DNA of 38,296 nt. Origin: Bacillota bacterium. Its GTDB lineage: Bacteria; Bacillota; Dethiobacteria; DTU022. The notes beneath the pieces are model-generated. The model was given only the letters and a program-made list of their open reading frames with translations. It was not told the origin of the DNA and did not search any database. This document shows, piece by piece, positions 5,079 through 12,660 of the stretch. The stretch lies in contig JAWSUE010000017.1 in NCBI GenBank assembly GCA_033549065.1, positions 1 to 38,296 on the forward strand, given 5' to 3'. The translations under genes were made by a program, and so were the position numbers. Positions within the stretch are counted from its first letter, which is position 1. Each line of letters begins with the position of its first letter.

Positions 5079-7130
5079 TTATTCCGGATTGATAAAATAT
5101 GGTTGTCGGTAAAATCTGCTAAGCGGAGGATACCCTGCAGGTGGAGCCCAACTATCACCTTCAATTAATATTTCAACCCTCTGTGATCTGCTGTTTTCAA
5201 AAACGGTAAGGAAAATTGCATCCAGAATAAGAGTAGCCCGGAGGTAATCCTGTTCGCTGCCATTTTCAGGGAATATTTCTTTAAAGCTGCTGTTCAGGTT
5301 AACCTGCACCTGTTCCGGAGTTTGCATAATACCAAGCAGGTTTAAATCCGATGGTACAAAAGTAAGTGATCTTGAAGCTCGTAAAGACTGTGAAATTAGA
5401 TTGTCGAGATCTATGTTATCCGTATTTTCAGTAGCTCCTTCCCGGATAGTCAGATAATACCTGTAACCGCTCATTATCGGAGTATAAATCGGATTCTCCC
5501 ACCTGATTGGTTGAATTGGCTGTTCTGCGATTATCATATCGCCGAAGGATACAATAGGCTGCCTTCGTACAGTCAAATAGATTTCTTTTACTTCGTTGAA
5601 AGCACTGACTGTCAAAATTAACGATTGTAAAGCTGATGCACTTTGGATTGTACCGTTCAGCTCAAACAGTTCCGGAGGCATATCCAAAGAAAGCTGACCG
5701 TTCTCTGCAGAAAATTCAACTTCTGCATAAACGTTTTTATCCGGGATTGTCCTGTATAGAGCGCTACCCCTTGCCGGGCCGCGTATAAGTTCTTCCATTG
5801 CAGAACGGATCGGGTTCTCTGTCTGGCTGATAGTTCTTGTAACGGGAATCAGGTTGGCATTTTCATCAATAAAGTATAGCTGTATTTTAGTTTGATTCGC
5901 CGAAAGGCCAGTTGTAACCGGGTTATAAATTGGACCGGAAGCTGTTTCATTATTACCATTACCGCTTTCTGAAAGTAGAGGGCGAAGATTAATTAAATCT
6001 ATATAGCCATCTTCACCGCATACTACTGCCAGATAAGGATGGCCGGACAAGATTAATTTCTCAACACGCATTGCAACTTCCCAGCTGTTTATCTCTTCAC
6101 CATCCCTGTTCAGTAATAGCATCTGTGTATAGTCTTCCCTGAAATGGCGCCAGGAGCTGGTTACAATATGCTGCCCGTCTGAAGTAAAAGAGAAGAGTGA
6201 ACCATCAGGTATGCGTTTCATCCAGAGAAGATCCTGGGCAAGATCAAAATAATAAAGGTTTTCACCTGCGCCTTCCCTGCTACCGTAGACCAATAAACGG
6301 TTATAATTCTGTGGATTAAAGATAACTTTTTGGGGTTCAAAAGGAAGTATGGTATCCCACAAGAGATAACCCAGTGAATCATATACAATTAACTGATTGC
6401 CCTTGACGGCAGCCAGGCGGCTTCCATGTCTTGAAACTGCGGCCAATGTCTGATTTTCAAAACTCCACACTTCTTCGCCGTTAAGGTTTAAGGCCCTGAC
6501 TTTCGGTATTTCTTCCTCAATATAAGTGTAGTAGATATTCGCCTGTTCGAGGTACTCACTGGTCAGGAAGAGATTAATAACCGGCTCTGTTTCAATTGTC
6601 CAGAGGGATTCACCTTTTTGGTTAAAAAAGTCCAGGTTGTTAAAGTCTTCGTCCGGGTTTGATCGGGAAACAACTATCCAGGAAGCAGTTGGAGAGATTG
6701 CAACAAGATCTATTGGATCCCCTTCATTTTCCCACCAAATTTGCTGATCTGAAGTTGTATAAAGAAGTCTTCCCCCGGATGTCCCAATTACTGCATAATT
6801 GCCGCACTGTGAAATTTTTGCCTGACCAGGTGCAGTTGCAAAAGATCTGTCCCACAAAAGCCTGCGTTCGCGGTCGAGCAGGCTTACAGAGTTATTGCCT
6901 GTGCTAAAAAGAATACCATTCAATCCATAGTCAACTGTTAGATCAAGGATACTCGTGCTGGTAAACCACAAATCGTAAAGGGCTTCACCCTGGTCGGCTG
7001 ACTGCGGATCAATTGCCAATGAAGATGATTCTGCGCGGGGAAGGAACTGAATTATGTACAATACAAAACCGGCCAGTATAAATAACATAGCCAGTGAGAT
7101 TATATAATAAAATGGCTGAATCCTTTTCAT
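5079..7130 (-). CDS. Membrane-anchored beta-propeller / double GerMN protein (LpqB-like architecture)
   Basis: 683-residue protein anchored by one N-terminal membrane helix (about 8-30), with no lipobox Cys. The bulk should lie outside the membrane. Residues ~50-385 contain WD40/PQQ-like blade motifs repeated along the chain (LLDRERRLLWD, GESLWTIE, LNGEEVWSF, DSLGYLLWD, LAQDLLWMK, DGEEINSWE), consistent with a beta-propeller. Residues ~412-528 look like a GerMN domain (IQLYFIDENANLIPV, MEELIRGPARGS, ALQSLILTVSAF), and ~556-670 like a second GerMN copy (RYYLTIREG, LRATLILDAIFLTVF). It is the third gene after a response regulator and histidine kinase. LpqB, which partners the MtrAB two-component system in actinobacteria, has the same two domain types in the opposite order. 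An accessory role to the kinase is inferred, not shown. Confidence 0.8.
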   Translation of the reverse strand: MKRIQPFYYIISLAMLFILAGFVLYIIQFLPRAESSSLAIDPQSADQGEALYDLWFTSTSILDLTVDYGLNGILFSTGNNSVSLLDRERRLLWDRSFATAPGQAKISQCGNYAVIGTSGGRLLYTTSDQQIWWENEGDPIDLVAISPTASWIVVSRSNPDEDFNNLDFFNQKGESLWTIETEPVINLFLTSEYLEQANIYYTYIEEEIPKVRALNLNGEEVWSFENQTLAAVSRHGSRLAAVKGNQLIVYDSLGYLLWDTILPFEPQKVIFNPQNYNRLLVYGSREGAGENLYYFDLAQDLLWMKRIPDGSLFSFTSDGQHIVTSSWRHFREDYTQMLLLNRDGEEINSWEVAMRVEKLILSGHPYLAVVCGEDGYIDLINLRPLLSESGNGNNETASGPIYNPVTTGLSANQTKIQLYFIDENANLIPVTRTISQTENPIRSAMEELIRGPARGSALYRTIPDKNVYAEVEFSAENGQLSLDMPPELFELNGTIQSASALQSLILTVSAFNEVKEIYLTVRRQPIVSFGDMIIAEQPIQPIRWENPIYTPIMSGYRYYLTIREGATENTDNIDLDNLISQSLRASRSLTFVPSDLNLLGIMQTPEQVQVNLNSSFKEIFPENGSEQDYLRATLILDAIFLTVFENSRSQRVEILIEGDSWAPPAGYPPLSRFYRQPYFINPE

Positions 7131-7239
7131 AAGTTAACCCCTCCGGACTAAAAACCAAAGTGCATGTTATTCTATCATAAGTTTATTAGTGATTTCTAAT
7201 AAAGATAATAATCTATCATTAAGTTTTAATAATAATTCC

Positions 7240-8652
7240 CTACTCAGTGACCAACGGCAGGGCAAAATAGAAATTGCTTCCTTCACCAAGATTACTTTCC
7301 ACCCAAACGCGACCACCATGTTTTGTCACTATTTCATTGACAATAGCCAGGCCGAGACCGGTTCCACCCGCCTCTCTTGAACGGGCTCGATCTACCCTAA
7401 AAAATCTATCAAAAATGAAACTTAAATCTTCCTCAGGTATGCCGCAACCTGTATCGCTAATTCCGGTAATAACTTCTTCGCCTTCCCTGTACAATGATAT
7501 AGTGATCGCTCCTCCGGGCGGAGTATAATTTAAGGCATTATCCAAAAGATTGCTGATTACCTGTCTCAACTGCATGGGTGCCGCGCGTACGATATAATCC
7601 TGACCGGGTTTTTCATAGATCAATTCAAGCCCCGCATGCGAAAAACGATATTCATTTTCATTAAGCATGTCGCTAAGCAATAGGTTTAAAGTAATATTTT
7701 CCTGCTCAAGGTTATTTTTTTCGAGTTTTGAAAGTTCAAGCAGATCATTTACAAGTGCGGTCAGTCTTTCCAGTTCACCATCCAGATCTGATACAAACTC
7801 TTTTTGCTGTTTTTTATTCATGTCATGTTCCAATAAGGCTTTGGTCAATAAACTCATTGTCGTAAGCGGGGTCCGGACCTCGTGGGCGACATCGGCTGCA
7901 AACTTCTTAAGATTGCTTGTGTAGTAATTTAATTTCTTTGCCATCAGGTTAAACTGTTCAGCAAGCCGTCCGATCTCATCTTTCGATTTAAATTCAATAT
8001 GCTGATCAAGTTTTCCCTCTGCCATTTTCCGGGCAGCTGTAGTTAACTCTTCAAGTGGACCGGTAAATCGACGGGCTAAAATTACTGAGCCACCCCCGAC
8101 TACAGCCATAGCAATTACAGTTGCTAAAAATAGAAAAGTTCTTATATCATCAAGGGTTTGGTATAGATTTTCCATTGAGGCAGATAGAATTATAACTCCA
8201 AGGACAATCTCATTTTCATCCTTAACAGGTATGGCAACCTGCATTACCGGCTGCTGCAGCCTTTCACTAAAGCTCACACTGCTGCTTACAACACCCTGCA
8301 GGGCAACAGCAACATCTTCATGCGTTAAAAGCTGATTCAGCATTCCTCCAATCCTAATTGAATCACCCACAACAAGCCCCTGCTGATCGGTAAATATAAC
8401 CCTGGCCTGGGCCTGACGGCTCATATTTTCAGCCAGGGTGCTTAAACGTACCGAGTCGATCTGACCTCGCAGGTGGCCCACTAAAAAGTCAGAAGCCAGA
8501 AAACCAGAAATTTCAAGGCTTTCCTGCATATTGCTCAGGTAGTAATGCTCCAGAGTGTTAAAGAGAAATATACTGATGATTACCATTACCGCCAGGATAA
8601 TTGCCAGGAAAGAGGCTGTCAGGCGGAAACGGATGCTGTAAAACTTAAGCAT
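7240..8652 (-). CDS. Envelope-sensing histidine kinase (HAMP-HisKA-HATPase)
   Basis: Membrane sensor kinase of about 470 residues. TM1 is ~11-31, an extracytoplasmic sensing domain ~32-172, TM2 ~173-193, followed by a HAMP linker. The dimerisation/phosphoacceptor box FAADVAHEVRTPLTT puts the phosphorylated His at ~257. ATP-binding motifs follow: DNALNYTPPGG (N box), SDTGCGIPEED (G1), FDRFFRVDRARS (F box) and GGTGLGLAIV (G2). There is no PAS domain after HAMP. I place the start at the ATG at 8652, seven bases after GGAGG; its A overlaps the regulator's TGA. It resembles PhoR/ResE/MtrB-type kinases. Its partner is the upstream regulator, and the propeller/GerMN protein follows. Confidence 0.93.
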   Translation of the reverse strand: MLKFYSIRFRLTASFLAIILAVMVIISIFLFNTLEHYYLSNMQESLEISGFLASDFLVGHLRGQIDSVRLSTLAENMSRQAQARVIFTDQQGLVVGDSIRIGGMLNQLLTHEDVAVALQGVVSSSVSFSERLQQPVMQVAIPVKDENEIVLGVIILSASMENLYQTLDDIRTFLFLATVIAMAVVGGGSVILARRFTGPLEELTTAARKMAEGKLDQHIEFKSKDEIGRLAEQFNLMAKKLNYYTSNLKKFAADVAHEVRTPLTTMSLLTKALLEHDMNKKQQKEFVSDLDGELERLTALVNDLLELSKLEKNNLEQENITLNLLLSDMLNENEYRFSHAGLELIYEKPGQDYIVRAAPMQLRQVISNLLDNALNYTPPGGAITISLYREGEEVITGISDTGCGIPEEDLSFIFDRFFRVDRARSREAGGTGLGLAIVNEIVTKHGGRVWVESNLGEGSNFYFALPLVTE

Positions 8653-9344
8653 CAAGCATCCTCCCTGATTTTATAACCAGTCCCCCATACGGTAATGATA
8701 TAATCCGGATTGCTTGGATCAGCTTCGATTTTTTCCCTGATATGCCTGATATGTACATCGACAGTTCGAACATCTCCATAGTAATCATAACCCCATACCT
8801 GTTCCAAGAGCTGTTCACGGGAATAAACATTCCCGGCGTTTGTGGCTAAAAAACTTAAAAGAGCAAATTCCTTCGATGTCAGGTTAACATCCTTCTCACC
8901 GAGGCGGATCCTGTGCTGGAGCAAGTCTACCTGTAAGTCACCGATTTGAATCACTTTTTTTGGTTCTTCCTCCCGGGCGGTAGTCCTCCTGAGTATTGCC
9001 TTAATTCTGGCAACCAATTCTCTTGCATTAAAAGGTTTAGTGAGATAATCGTCCGCTCCCAGTTCCAAACCTAAGACCTTATCGATGTCCTCGCTACGGG
9101 CAGTAAGCATAATTATTGGAACATCATGCTTTTTTCGAATACGGCGGCAGACTTCAAATCCATCCAGTCCGGGGAGCATGAGATCAAGAACCACAATATC
9201 AGGTTTTACTTCAACTACTTTCTGTAATGCTTCCTCTCCATCATACGCTTGTTCAACCCGAAAGCCTTCTTTTTCCAAGTTAAAAGTGAGCGCTTTAACG
9301 AGCGTTTTCTCATCATCAACAACTAATACCAGATCTTTATTCAT
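8652..9344 (-). CDS. OmpR/PhoB-family response regulator
   Basis: DNA-binding response regulator of 230 residues from the ATG at 9344. The receiver domain (1-~120) has the acidic pair DDE near 10-12, phospho-Asp at ~54 (VVLDLMLPG), Thr in MLTAR and Lys in LTKPF. The C-terminal winged helix (~135-230) has the family pattern LTSKEFALLSFLATNAGNVYS..LLEQVWGY and RTVDVHIRHIREKIE. A frame extends to 9395, but the ATG at 9344 has GGAGG nine bases upstream and starts directly at the receiver fold. It overlaps the kinase by one base (TGATG), implying translational coupling. The neighbours (ddl, propeller/GerMN) suggest an envelope regulon. Confidence 0.95.
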   Translation of the reverse strand: MNKDLVLVVDDEKTLVKALTFNLEKEGFRVEQAYDGEEALQKVVEVKPDIVVLDLMLPGLDGFEVCRRIRKKHDVPIIMLTARSEDIDKVLGLELGADDYLTKPFNARELVARIKAILRRTTAREEEPKKVIQIGDLQVDLLQHRIRLGEKDVNLTSKEFALLSFLATNAGNVYSREQLLEQVWGYDYYGDVRTVDVHIRHIREKIEADPSNPDYIITVWGTGYKIREDA

Positions 9345-9438
9345 CAGCCGAAACCTCCCTGATCTGTTTTGAAAATTTACAATACCCGTTTTCATTAATT
9401 AACCAGTCGTTCTTATTTAGTTTCATTTCCAACTATGC

Positions 9439-10071
9439 TTACTTCTTATAATACTTTATTACTTCTTTTATGTCTTCCCAAACATATTTTTTCTTGCCGG
9501 GATCTCTTAGCAGCGCTGCCGGGTGAAAAGTTGCTATAATGCGTCTTGAATCCCATTCATGCCAGGTTCCCCTACAGCGGGTTATTGACAAATTCTGACC
9601 GATTAAAGTTTTAGTCGCCAGGGCACCGAGGCAAACAATAATTTCCGGATTTATTAATTCGATCTGCTCCTTCAGGTAAGGAAGGCATGCTTCTACTTCA
9701 GATTGAAGAGGCAATCTATTGGAAGGGGGTCTGCACTTTACAATGTTGGCGATATATACTTCTTCTCTCTTTATATCTGCTGCAGCCAGGATCCTGTCCA
9801 GCAGCTGTCCGGCCCTTCCGACAAAAGGTATCCCAATACGATCTTCATCCGCTCCAGGACCTTCTCCGATAAGCATCAGTTTGGTTTGCGGATTACCATC
9901 TCCAAACACAACCTGTGTGCATGTACTTCTCAGAATACAATTGTTACAGGTTAGGCAGGTTTGTTTTAACCGCTCTAGTTTTTGTACAGGATCTTCTGCA
10001 GGTGTGCTTTGATTTTTATGTGAATTAATCAGTTCAATCAAAGACTGCTGTCGCTCTGTGATTGTCCTCAC
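9439..10071 (-). CDS. Type-4 uracil-DNA glycosylase (Fe-S)
   Basis: Base-excision repair enzyme that removes uracil from DNA, 210 residues. Family 4 UDGs bind a 4Fe-4S cluster. N-terminal cysteines are at 39, 42, 45 and 51, and a further pair (ACLPY, IVCLGA) occurs in the middle. Motif A is GEGPGADEDRIGIPFVGRAGQLLD, and the C-terminal motif is ATFHPAALLRDPGKK. A ~30-residue Gln/Ser-rich extension precedes the first Cys. The start codon is GTG with only a poor ribosome site, so translation may be weak or coupled to the preceding gene. It lies 78 bases after ddl and before the two-component genes. Confidence 0.93.
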   Translation of the reverse strand: MRTITERQQSLIELINSHKNQSTPAEDPVQKLERLKQTCLTCNNCILRSTCTQVVFGDGNPQTKLMLIGEGPGADEDRIGIPFVGRAGQLLDRILAAADIKREEVYIANIVKCRPPSNRLPLQSEVEACLPYLKEQIELINPEIIVCLGALATKTLIGQNLSITRCRGTWHEWDSRRIIATFHPAALLRDPGKKKYVWEDIKEVIKYYKK

Positions 10072-10149
10072 CCCAAAATGTACCGAAAGATAATTTTTAG
10101 TATCGCAATTAATTCAACAGTCAGAACAGTTATTCCTTCACTGGAGCAT

Positions 10150-11256
10150 TTATTCCGGAGGAGCTACCATCAGGGATTTTCTCCTTATAAAACGACTCTC
10201 TGCAATATCAAGAAGGCGGTTTACCAGTTCCGGATAACTGATACCACTTGCTTCCCATAGTTTTGGATACATGCTTATACTGGTAAATCCAGGCATGGTA
10301 TTAATTTCATTGACTATTACCCGTCCAGAAACCCTTTCAATAAAGAAATCAACCCTGGCCAGACCGCTTCCTTCAACAACTTGAAATGCTTTAATGGAAT
10401 AATTCCTTACTTTTTCTTCAATATCCAAAGAGAGTTCAACAGGAACGATCAGCTCAGATCGATCATCGATATATTTAGCCCGATAGTCATAAAATTCATT
10501 ACAAGGAATAATTTCACCGGGTCTGGAAGCTTGGACGTCCAGATCTCCCAAAACACTGCATTCAATTTCCCTTCCATCAATAAACTTATCTACAATCACT
10601 TTTTCATCGTATAAAAATGCTTCTTCTACAGCCGCTCCCAACTCGTCCAAAGAACTGACCTTTGTTATACCAACGCTGGAGCCAAGATTTGCCGGCTTAA
10701 CGAAACAAGGCAACTCCAGTTGTTTTATTATTGTATCCTGCCAGCTAGAGCGATCCTGAACCCACTCATGCCGGTGGAAGTAAACATAAGAAGCAACCGG
10801 TAAACCGGCTCTTTCAAATAATATTTTCATAACCACTTTATCCATGGAAACACTGGAAGCAAGCACTCCGGAACCAACATATGGAATGCCAGCCATTTCA
10901 AATAACCCCTGGATAGTGCCATCTTCTCCATAAGTACCATGTAATATAGGAAAGACTATATCCAGCGGTTGGTAGTTCCATTCAACCGGTGATTTTTCAG
11001 ATTGTATTAATAGGCCGGGTTGGGACGGGTCGGTTAACAATACTGTTTTTGCAGCATTCACAGGAAGGCGATATTCCCAGAATGCCTGCCAGATATCACT
11101 CCCGGAATACCAAAGACCTTCCCGGCTGATTCCAACAGGGATAATTTTATATTTTTCTGAATCAATGGCATCCATGATTGAAGCTGCGGATCTTAAAGAA
11201 ACAACATGCTCACCTGACCTACCGCCAAAGATAACAGCTACGGTTTTCTGGATCAT
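10150..11256 (-). CDS. ddl: D-alanine--D-alanine ligase
   Basis: Cytosolic ATP-grasp enzyme that joins two D-Ala for peptidoglycan precursors, 368 residues. The N-terminal motif is FGGRSGEHVVSLRSA. The ATP-grasp domain has CFVKPANLGSSVGITKV, the omega-loop tyrosine motif YDYRAKY, and the Mg-binding end VNEINTMPGFTSISMYPKLW. The YDY.AKY loop points to D-Ala-D-Ala rather than D-Ala-D-Lac specificity (known for the family; inferred here). It is first in the leftward gene string and divergent from an ATP-grasp ligase at 11446. The mRNA probably begins with a GC-rich hairpin (see 11285-11304). Confidence 0.95.
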   Translation of the reverse strand: MIQKTVAVIFGGRSGEHVVSLRSAASIMDAIDSEKYKIIPVGISREGLWYSGSDIWQAFWEYRLPVNAAKTVLLTDPSQPGLLIQSEKSPVEWNYQPLDIVFPILHGTYGEDGTIQGLFEMAGIPYVGSGVLASSVSMDKVVMKILFERAGLPVASYVYFHRHEWVQDRSSWQDTIIKQLELPCFVKPANLGSSVGITKVSSLDELGAAVEEAFLYDEKVIVDKFIDGREIECSVLGDLDVQASRPGEIIPCNEFYDYRAKYIDDRSELIVPVELSLDIEEKVRNYSIKAFQVVEGSGLARVDFFIERVSGRVIVNEINTMPGFTSISMYPKLWEASGISYPELVNRLLDIAESRFIRRKSLMVAPPE

Positions 11257-11284
11257 TTATTATCAACTCCCTAAATACTGTTAA

Positions 11285-11304
11285 GCCCGCTGTTGGTTGC
11301 GGGC
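11285..11304 (-). promoter_or_regulatory. Hairpin at the 5' end of the ddl mRNA
   Basis: The perfect 6-bp stem GCCCGC/GCGGGC has an 8-base loop. It lies where a transcript from the -10 at 11316-11311 would begin, about 30 bases before the ddl ribosome site. No T run follows, so a 5'-stabilising or regulatory hairpin is more likely than a terminator. Confidence 0.45.
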
Positions 11305-11399
11305 ATTATGATTATATCATACAGCGTTATACAGTTTATATGTAGTTTATCTATTGCAAAAGTGCAGGAGGTTATATAAAGTTACGATATAATCATAAT
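11305..11399. promoter_or_regulatory. Divergent promoter pair with a shared 14-bp element
   Basis: GATATAATCATAAT occurs on the plus strand at 11386-11399 and, perfectly inverted, at 11305-11318. Each copy holds a TATAAT -10 box, one facing ddl (extended -10, TGATATAAT) and one facing the ATP-grasp gene. Neither has a convincing -35, which suggests activator dependence. The two transcripts would start about 95 bases apart and run away from each other. Confidence 0.6.
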
Positions 11400-11445
11400 A
11401 CCTTAATACCATATTAATAGAAAAGAAAAAGAAGGATTGTTGCTA

Positions 11446-12660
11446 ATGCAAATACCGGTAATTATGCTGGGAGCAAATTTCTATACCTCCCTGGGAGCAA
11501 TAAGAACTCTGGGCAGAAGAGGAGTTCCGGTTCATGCATTTGATTATGATTTTTCCACAGCTTATGCTCTCTCCTCAAAATATGTAACCAGAAAAGTACT
11601 TTGTCCCGACATAAACAGCAATGAAAAAGAGTTGGTAGATTTTCTTATAAATTATTCTAATCAATTTACATTGCGCCCTGTCCTGATGTCAACAGCTGAT
11701 AATTATGCTCTGATGGTATCAAGGCATTCTGACAAACTTGCCAAGCATTACAGGTTTCCGATCATGGAACCTGGTTTACTGGAAAAAATCATTGATAAAA
11801 ATGGTTTATATGAACTGGCTATCAAACATGATCTTAGCATACCAAAAACCTATATAGTCAACCAGTATAGTAATCTGAATCAAATAGCACTGGAAATGCC
11901 TTATCCCTGTATAATCAAACCGGCTCTTTCGCATAAATTTGTTAAAGTATTTCGGCAAAAATGTCTTTTTGCGAATAACAAAGAAGATTTATTATCCGCG
12001 CTGGAAACTGCCAGGAAAAGCAGCCTTGAAGTGATGGTACAGGAAATCATCCCCGGATTTGACGACCAGATGTACGTATATGATACATACATAAACAAAT
12101 ATGGTAACGCTACCCATACATTTAGTGGACAAAAATTACGTCAGTTTCCGATTAATTTTGGGTCATCAACTCTTACCCACCAGCTATATGACCAAGAATT
12201 GATCGAATTAGGTCAAATGTATATGAAACGAATTAACTACAGGGGTTACGGTGAAATTGAATTTAAAAAAGATTTCCGTACAGGAGAATTCAAGCTGATC
12301 GAAATTAACGCCCGTTTGAGTACTTTAAATATCCTTTTTGATAAATGCGGTGTGGAGTTTACATATGCAATGTACAGAGATTTAATTGATGATCCTTTAC
12401 CCGACTTTCACCTGGCCGAAAATAAACCGTGGGCTTTCTGGCACGCCTATGAAGATCTGATCAGCAATATAGCATATCTGAAAACAAAGCAATTAACCTT
12501 ATGGCAGATCATCAAACCCTGGGCAAGCCATTATAAAGCTCACGCTATTTTGGCAACAGATGACTGGAAGCCGCTTTTTTCTTTTGCCTGGTTAATAACC
12601 AGAAAAGGTTTGAACAAAATCAAGCGTCTGATTACAAGACAAGAAAGAGGGGCGAATTGA
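11446..12660 (+). CDS. ATP-grasp carboxylate-amine ligase (COG3919-like)
   Basis: Cytosolic ligase of 404 residues. The N-terminus is a Rossmann-like pre-ATP-grasp fold (PVIMLGANFYTSLGAIRTLG). The ATP-grasp core includes YPCIIKPALSH, VMVQEIIPG and the metal-binding end FKLIEINARLST. It resembles the COG3919 group that contains D-aspartate ligases of peptidoglycan cross-bridges and other uncharacterised ligases. The substrate cannot be read from sequence. The ATG at 11446 is chosen over an in-frame TTG at 11437 because GAAGGA lies nine bases upstream. It is divergent from ddl with a matched -10 element, so a cell-wall role is attractive but inferred. It is head-on to replication, and its stop codon lies in the loop of its own terminator. 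Confidence 0.85.
   Translation: MQIPVIMLGANFYTSLGAIRTLGRRGVPVHAFDYDFSTAYALSSKYVTRKVLCPDINSNEKELVDFLINYSNQFTLRPVLMSTADNYALMVSRHSDKLAKHYRFPIMEPGLLEKIIDKNGLYELAIKHDLSIPKTYIVNQYSNLNQIALEMPYPCIIKPALSHKFVKVFRQKCLFANNKEDLLSALETARKSSLEVMVQEIIPGFDDQMYVYDTYINKYGNATHTFSGQKLRQFPINFGSSTLTHQLYDQELIELGQMYMKRINYRGYGEIEFKKDFRTGEFKLIEINARLSTLNILFDKCGVEFTYAMYRDLIDDPLPDFHLAENKPWAFWHAYEDLISNIAYLKTKQLTLWQIIKPWASHYKAHAILATDDWKPLFSFAWLITRKGLNKIKRLITRQERGAN

Follow-up and report, generated by a model that had tools for sequence, protein, structure and literature searches.

A perfect inverted repeat between divergent ddl and ATP-grasp genes in a Dethiobacteria genome: an apparent lineage-specific coincidence of two differently built promoters

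We begin with the described systems that stand closest to this locus. On the promoter side these are the extended -10 sigma-A promoters of Gram-positive bacteria (TRTGn, the '-16 region'); for B. subtilis the -16 consensus is given as TRTG (PMC6570832). The locus resembles them in carrying TRTG-N-TATAAT at ddl in 22 of 23 genomes and differs from them by the frequent CA right after TATAAT. On the enzyme side are the D-aspartate ligases AslA/Aslfm of peptidoglycan cross-bridges, which share with the locus the ATP-grasp fold and a gene beside a cell-wall gene; in Lactococcus lactis the ATP-grasp D-Asp ligase AslA is encoded in one operon with racD (PMC4155827). A further point of reference is given by the carbamoyl-phosphate-synthase-like proteins PRK12767 (NCBIfam) and by the structure 2pn1 (PDB), to which the ATP-grasp protein studied here is best matched in NCBIfam and by fold.

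The window, i.e., the whole stretch of 38,296 nucleotides that was analysed, contains the following features.

10150-11256, minus strand: ddl, D-alanine--D-alanine ligase gene (Pfam and NCBIfam)
11305-11318, minus strand: left arm of the 14-bp inverted repeat, GATATAATCATAAT, exact match
11311-11321, minus strand: predicted extended -10 promoter of ddl, TATG-A-TATAAT (TRTG at 11318-11321, hexamer at 11311-11316)
11354-11359, plus strand: candidate -35 of the ATP-grasp gene, TTGCAA (TTGYAA with the same spacing in 13 of 25 intergenics)
11377-11382, plus strand: -10-like hexamer TAAAGT of the ATP-grasp gene, 17 bp past TTGCAA, kept in relatives
11386-11399, plus strand: right arm of the inverted repeat, GATATAATCATAAT, exact match
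11388-11393, plus strand: second TATA block of the predicted ATP-grasp promoter, TATAAT here; TATA is common at this offset, more loosely kept than the first block
11437-12660, plus strand: putative ATP-grasp ligase gene (Pfam CPSase_L_D2, fold)

The divergent gene pair is as the preliminary description had it. The minus-strand protein has both Ddl domains of Pfam above cut-off (PF01820 and PF07478, Dala_Dala_lig_N and _C) and scores 447.7 bits against NF002528 of NCBIfam (cut-off 262), and by these matches is clearly a D-alanine--D-alanine ligase. The plus-strand protein has CPSase_L_D2 as its sole Pfam match; its translation likely starts at the ATG at 11446, judging from the spacing of the ribosome site and from relatives. 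The ddl gene heads a same-strand run (5079-11256) with a uracil-DNA glycosylase of family 4, a response regulator, a histidine kinase and a Germane-domain protein; the best models of the regulator and the kinase are YycF/WalK, with scores below cut-off, and the gene order of the run is also seen by eye in G006 and G004.

The inverted repeat itself is real. The intergenic region of 180 bp (11257-11436) holds one exact copy of GATATAATCATAAT on each strand, the longest exact inverted repeat in it being 14 nt; in extended form the repeat reaches 20 nt at 90% identity, with 61 nt separating the arms. The whole window has no further match to the 14-mer, even at up to two mismatches. In 500 dinucleotide shuffles of the intergenic the longest inverted repeat has a mean of 7.6 nt and a maximum of 12, and none of the 500 reaches 14 nt. 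The identity of the two arms in this genome therefore exceeds chance for random sequence.

Does this repeat exist in relatives that keep both genes? Among 99 related genomes searched (own included), the ATP-grasp protein has matches in 48 (E ≤0.001) and ddl in 91. The divergent order of the two genes is kept on one contig in 23 genomes of the family, this one included, and all 23 intergenics were extracted; in three of these pair genomes (G020, G021, G035) one gene of the pair is only partly on the contig. CPSase_L_D2 is found in the ATP-grasp proteins of all 23. In an alignment of ATP-grasp proteins from 29 loci, the named records are mostly Syntrophomonadaceae and other metagenome-assembled genomes of Bacillota, and Dethiobacter is one of the more distant. 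The longest exact inverted repeat in the 22 relatives' intergenics is 6-9 nt, and none of the 22 has one longer than 9 nt, so that the repeat is not conserved where both genes are. Eight relatives reach 9 nt (G002, G028, G031, G038, G040, G012, G023, G020), and in them TATAAT and the bases that follow are alike on both sides.

The ddl arm is a different matter. TRTGN-TATAAT stands upstream of ddl on the minus strand in all of the 23 pair genomes save G014, which has TATACT. The columns of TRTG carry 1.4-2.0 bits of information and those of TATAAT 1.7-2.0; the two bases that follow, mostly CA, have 1.2 and 0.9, and positions further on 0.26-0.58. Because the information drops so sharply past these two bases, the conservation is asymmetric. 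No common -35 is seen by eye in the flanks upstream of the 23 ddl hexamers. With TRTG one base before a conserved TATAAT, this has the form of an extended -10 promoter. Within 300 nt upstream of ddl in 16 genomes from other families, TGN-TATAAT is found in none.

Thirteen further genomes of the family extend the comparison. Six of them (G017, G025, G008, G003, G018, G026) carry TGATATAAT upstream of ddl, and G016, left out of this count, has TGTTATAAT 133 nt upstream; in the rest of the 13 no TGATATAAT is found upstream of ddl. G017, G025, G018 and G026 keep the extended -10 though they lack an ATP-grasp ortholog, a distant homolog being present in G018 and G026. The G017 interval is without the ATP-grasp gene, and ddl there stands face to face with the gene of elongation factor EF-G; the contig of G025 ends 216 nt upstream of ddl. 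Since the ddl arm is retained in genomes that lack the ortholog, it is independent of the partner gene. As a separate observation, a G+C stem of 6 bp with a loop of 8 nt lies at 11285-11304, where the ddl transcript would begin; it is terminator-like on the plus strand and was not seen by eye at that place in relatives.

The ATP-grasp side is built differently. The pattern TTGYAA-N17-TA.A.T occurs on the ATP-grasp strand in 10 of the 23 intergenics, against a mean of 0.04 and a maximum of 1 in shuffles, and on the ddl strand in none of the 23. The count becomes the 13 of 25 given above when the partly assembled intergenics of G008 and G037 are included and G is accepted as the fourth base of the second hexamer. 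In consensus form the promoter is TTGYAA, 15 bp, TATAAAGTT, 4 bp, TATA, and the right arm of the repeat in the window sits at the second TATA block. The earlier statement that neither gene has a good -35 thus stands for ddl, for which none is visible, but not for the ATP-grasp gene, for which TTGCAA is kept in relatives. Likewise, the plus-strand TATAAT that was taken as a -10 belongs to this predicted promoter as its second TATA block but is not clearly its -10. Six g3 genomes (G002, G028, G031, G036, G038, G040) are without the TTGYAA promoter and have the TATAAT block only, five of them as TACGTTATAATCAT and G028 as TACGTTATAATAAT, so that either block may serve as the -10; G039, also of g3, retains the TTGYAA form. 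Upstream of the six ATP-grasp genes that do not face ddl (G009, G011, G089, G091, G094, G095) there is no TTGYAA-N17. A strict consensus scan detects neither the ddl nor the ATP-grasp promoter; the latter is missed because TTGCAA/TAAAGT fits the consensus at 8 of 12 places and the threshold is 9.

Combining these results, we read the element as, probably, two independent promoters of sigma-A type that point away from each other. The ddl gene would be transcribed from the extended -10 TRTGN-TATAAT, which has no clear -35, and the ATP-grasp gene from TTGCAA-17-TAAAGT together with the second TATA block just downstream, both being predicted from conservation; at the ATP-grasp promoter either block may be the one that is melted. 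RNA polymerase would recognise each promoter separately, and a common operator would not be needed. What makes the arms identical here is that the second block is TATAATCATAAT, which agrees with the ddl -10 region at every base across 14 nt. Because the relatives show two differently built promoters that are identical only here, the repeat is little evidence of shared control: it is real and specific to this lineage, a place where, as far as the alignments indicate, two conserved promoters of different build coincide. Several findings count against this two-promoter account: the 14-nt identity is beyond chance, a 17-mer that includes it (TATGATATAATCATAAT) stands at two more genes, CA follows the ddl TATAAT, the two sides agree in several lineages, the six g3 genomes have the TATAAT block only, and the strict scan is empty. 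A literature search on D-alanine-D-alanine ligase, divergent promoter and inverted repeat found nothing, and we make no wider claim. Two conserved but different promoters can by local coincidence form a perfect and striking inverted repeat across their divergent -10 regions, and comparison with relatives exposes such cases.

The preliminary description proposed that identical promoter cores put the two genes under joint control. With the repeat absent from 22 relatives and the ddl half surviving where the ATP-grasp ortholog is missing, this is not supported. Does any coupling of the two arms remain? The best match of the ddl 17-mer on the ATP-grasp side has a mean of 11.2 of 17 positions within a genome and 10.7 across genomes, which is little coupling. 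A permutation across lineages of the agreement between the bases after TATAAT on the two sides gives, with this genome included, p 0.025 when three bases are compared and 0.005 when six are; without it the values are 0.065 and 0.019. The permutation takes one representative per lineage in 7-8 lineages (g5 had two, G020 and G004; G002 stood for g3) and leaves out genomes without TATAAT on the ATP-grasp strand, and both this and the cross-pair test are post hoc, designed after the matches were seen. The agreement is at most a weak hint of residual coupling, and the alignments do not support joint control beyond it. It could be explained without a protein operator if the two -10 regions, 72 bp apart, interacted by supercoiling and selection kept the initial transcribed sequences alike. 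The divergent order retained in 23 genomes would fit such coupled transcription, as would the likeness of the bases after TATAAT in g1, g3, g13 and G020; we nevertheless hold it to be unlikely, since the permutation is small as well as post hoc, 9 of the 23 pair genomes have no TATAAT at all on the ATP-grasp strand, and ddl retains its promoter without the partner gene.

The other copies of the 14-mer bear on a second alternative to two independent promoters. The whole genome (2.39 Mb) holds four copies of GATATAATCATAAT, and the two outside the window lie upstream of a MazE-like gene and of an ArsR-like gene, both reading the 17-mer. A regulator might then bind over each -10, at ddl to the palindrome TATGAT-ATA-ATCATA and on the other side to a near-copy, controlling the divergent pair and, here, the MazE-like and ArsR-like genes as well. 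Such a shared operator would account for the perfect 6-3-6 palindrome at ddl and at the two other genes, and for CATAA after three of the five TATGATATAAT sites of this genome when among the 140 listed non-ddl sites of the family only two have it, both from this genome. Of the ddl sites listed, 8 of 10 likewise have CA directly after TATAAT (11309-11310 in the window), compared with 9 of the 140 other listed TATGATATAAT sites, the sequences being related and not independent; a plain extended -10 does not require this CA. Other findings speak against it. The site at ddl is conserved asymmetrically; if other centres are counted, ATGAT-N3-ATCAT occurs five times in 2.39 Mb, close to the roughly four that base composition is estimated to predict; and the element on the ATP-grasp side is not retained outside this genome. 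Among 25 loci of ArsR-like orthologs, TNTGN-TATAAT stands upstream in 18, with A as the next base in 12, G in 5 and C in one, which is this genome. Since 17 of the 18 have A or G at that base, the copy here is best read as the promoter proper to the ArsR-like gene, altered at one base. For the MazE-like gene, which is hardly present in the family, one fair match is found there, and the identity of its 17-mer copy is not accounted for in this way. We consider the shared operator very improbable. A regulon joined by the extra 14-mer copies and ATGAT-N3-ATCAT was tried as a candidate and rejected, the orthologs of the MazE-like and ArsR-like genes not keeping the site; a regulon sharing the 14-mer is thus not supported by these comparisons. 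The small ArsR-like regulator (L164-L188) has a match of at least 63% identity in 28 of 43 genomes of the family, this one included, and its extended -10 promoter is conserved at 18 of the 25 loci examined.

We turn our attention to the enzyme, which is the more lasting lead: an ATP-grasp ligase, so far uncharacterised, that a Bacillota family keeps divergent from ddl and that is replaced in one genus by a distant homolog linked to a racemase. The structure model of the window protein (pLDDT 90.9) has 2pn1 as its best PDB match, with a TM-score of 0.59 over the query and 18% identity, and sequence searches of the PDB give weak or general ATP-grasp matches only. Against PRK12767 it scores 45.5 bits where the cut-off is 271, and it is therefore not a member. 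Homologs with 36-40% identity are found in G047, G082 and G071 (about 38-40% in the first two). Downstream of the homolog, G047 and G082 carry genes for a Mur ligase and for an Asp/Glu-type racemase, the latter named cysteate racemase or amino acid racemase by NCBIfam. In G018 a distant homolog (26% identity over part) and an Asp/Glu-type racemase occupy the slot flanked by ddl and the EF-G gene (L152, 1740-3777), in G026 a distant homolog beside ddl is cut by the contig end, and in G083 one adjoins a FemAB gene. These distant homologs beside Asp-type racemase genes resemble the pairing of AslA with racD as described for L. lactis (PMC4155827).

A cell-wall ligase is the best reading of the window gene, putative as it is. 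The suggestion that both enzymes work on one precursor gains some support from the Mur-ligase, Asp-type racemase and FemAB genes beside distant homologs, but the D-Asp substrate that went with it does not: unlike AslA/Aslfm, the window gene has no racemase of that subfamily beside it, and none was found elsewhere in the genome (0 matches to the G047 racemase); the likeness to AslA considered here is one of fold and gene context. Matches to Asp_Glu_race in this genome lie on other contigs: C7, C4 (judged by eye to resemble glutamate racemase) and, weakly, C2. Racemase and ATP-grasp gene do not co-occur in the family, the racemase being found in 8 of 28 genomes with an ATP-grasp match of at least 50% identity and in 5 of 15 without, and the orthologs that do not face ddl (G009, G011, G091, G089, G095, G094) have no cell-wall neighbour seen by eye. 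One could imagine the ddl/EF-G interval as a slot for cell-wall cross-bridge genes that holds one of two ATP-grasp ligase subfamilies, the ligase promoter having converged in some lineages on the ddl -10 region; a single factor or initiation signal would then govern the D-Ala-D-Ala end of a precursor together with its branch. As a whole this is a long shot. The interval itself, as seen in L152, L153 and L154, is a possible slot for such genes. In G010 the usual ATP-grasp gene faces ddl, and a distant homolog with a racemase faces the EF-G gene on another contig.
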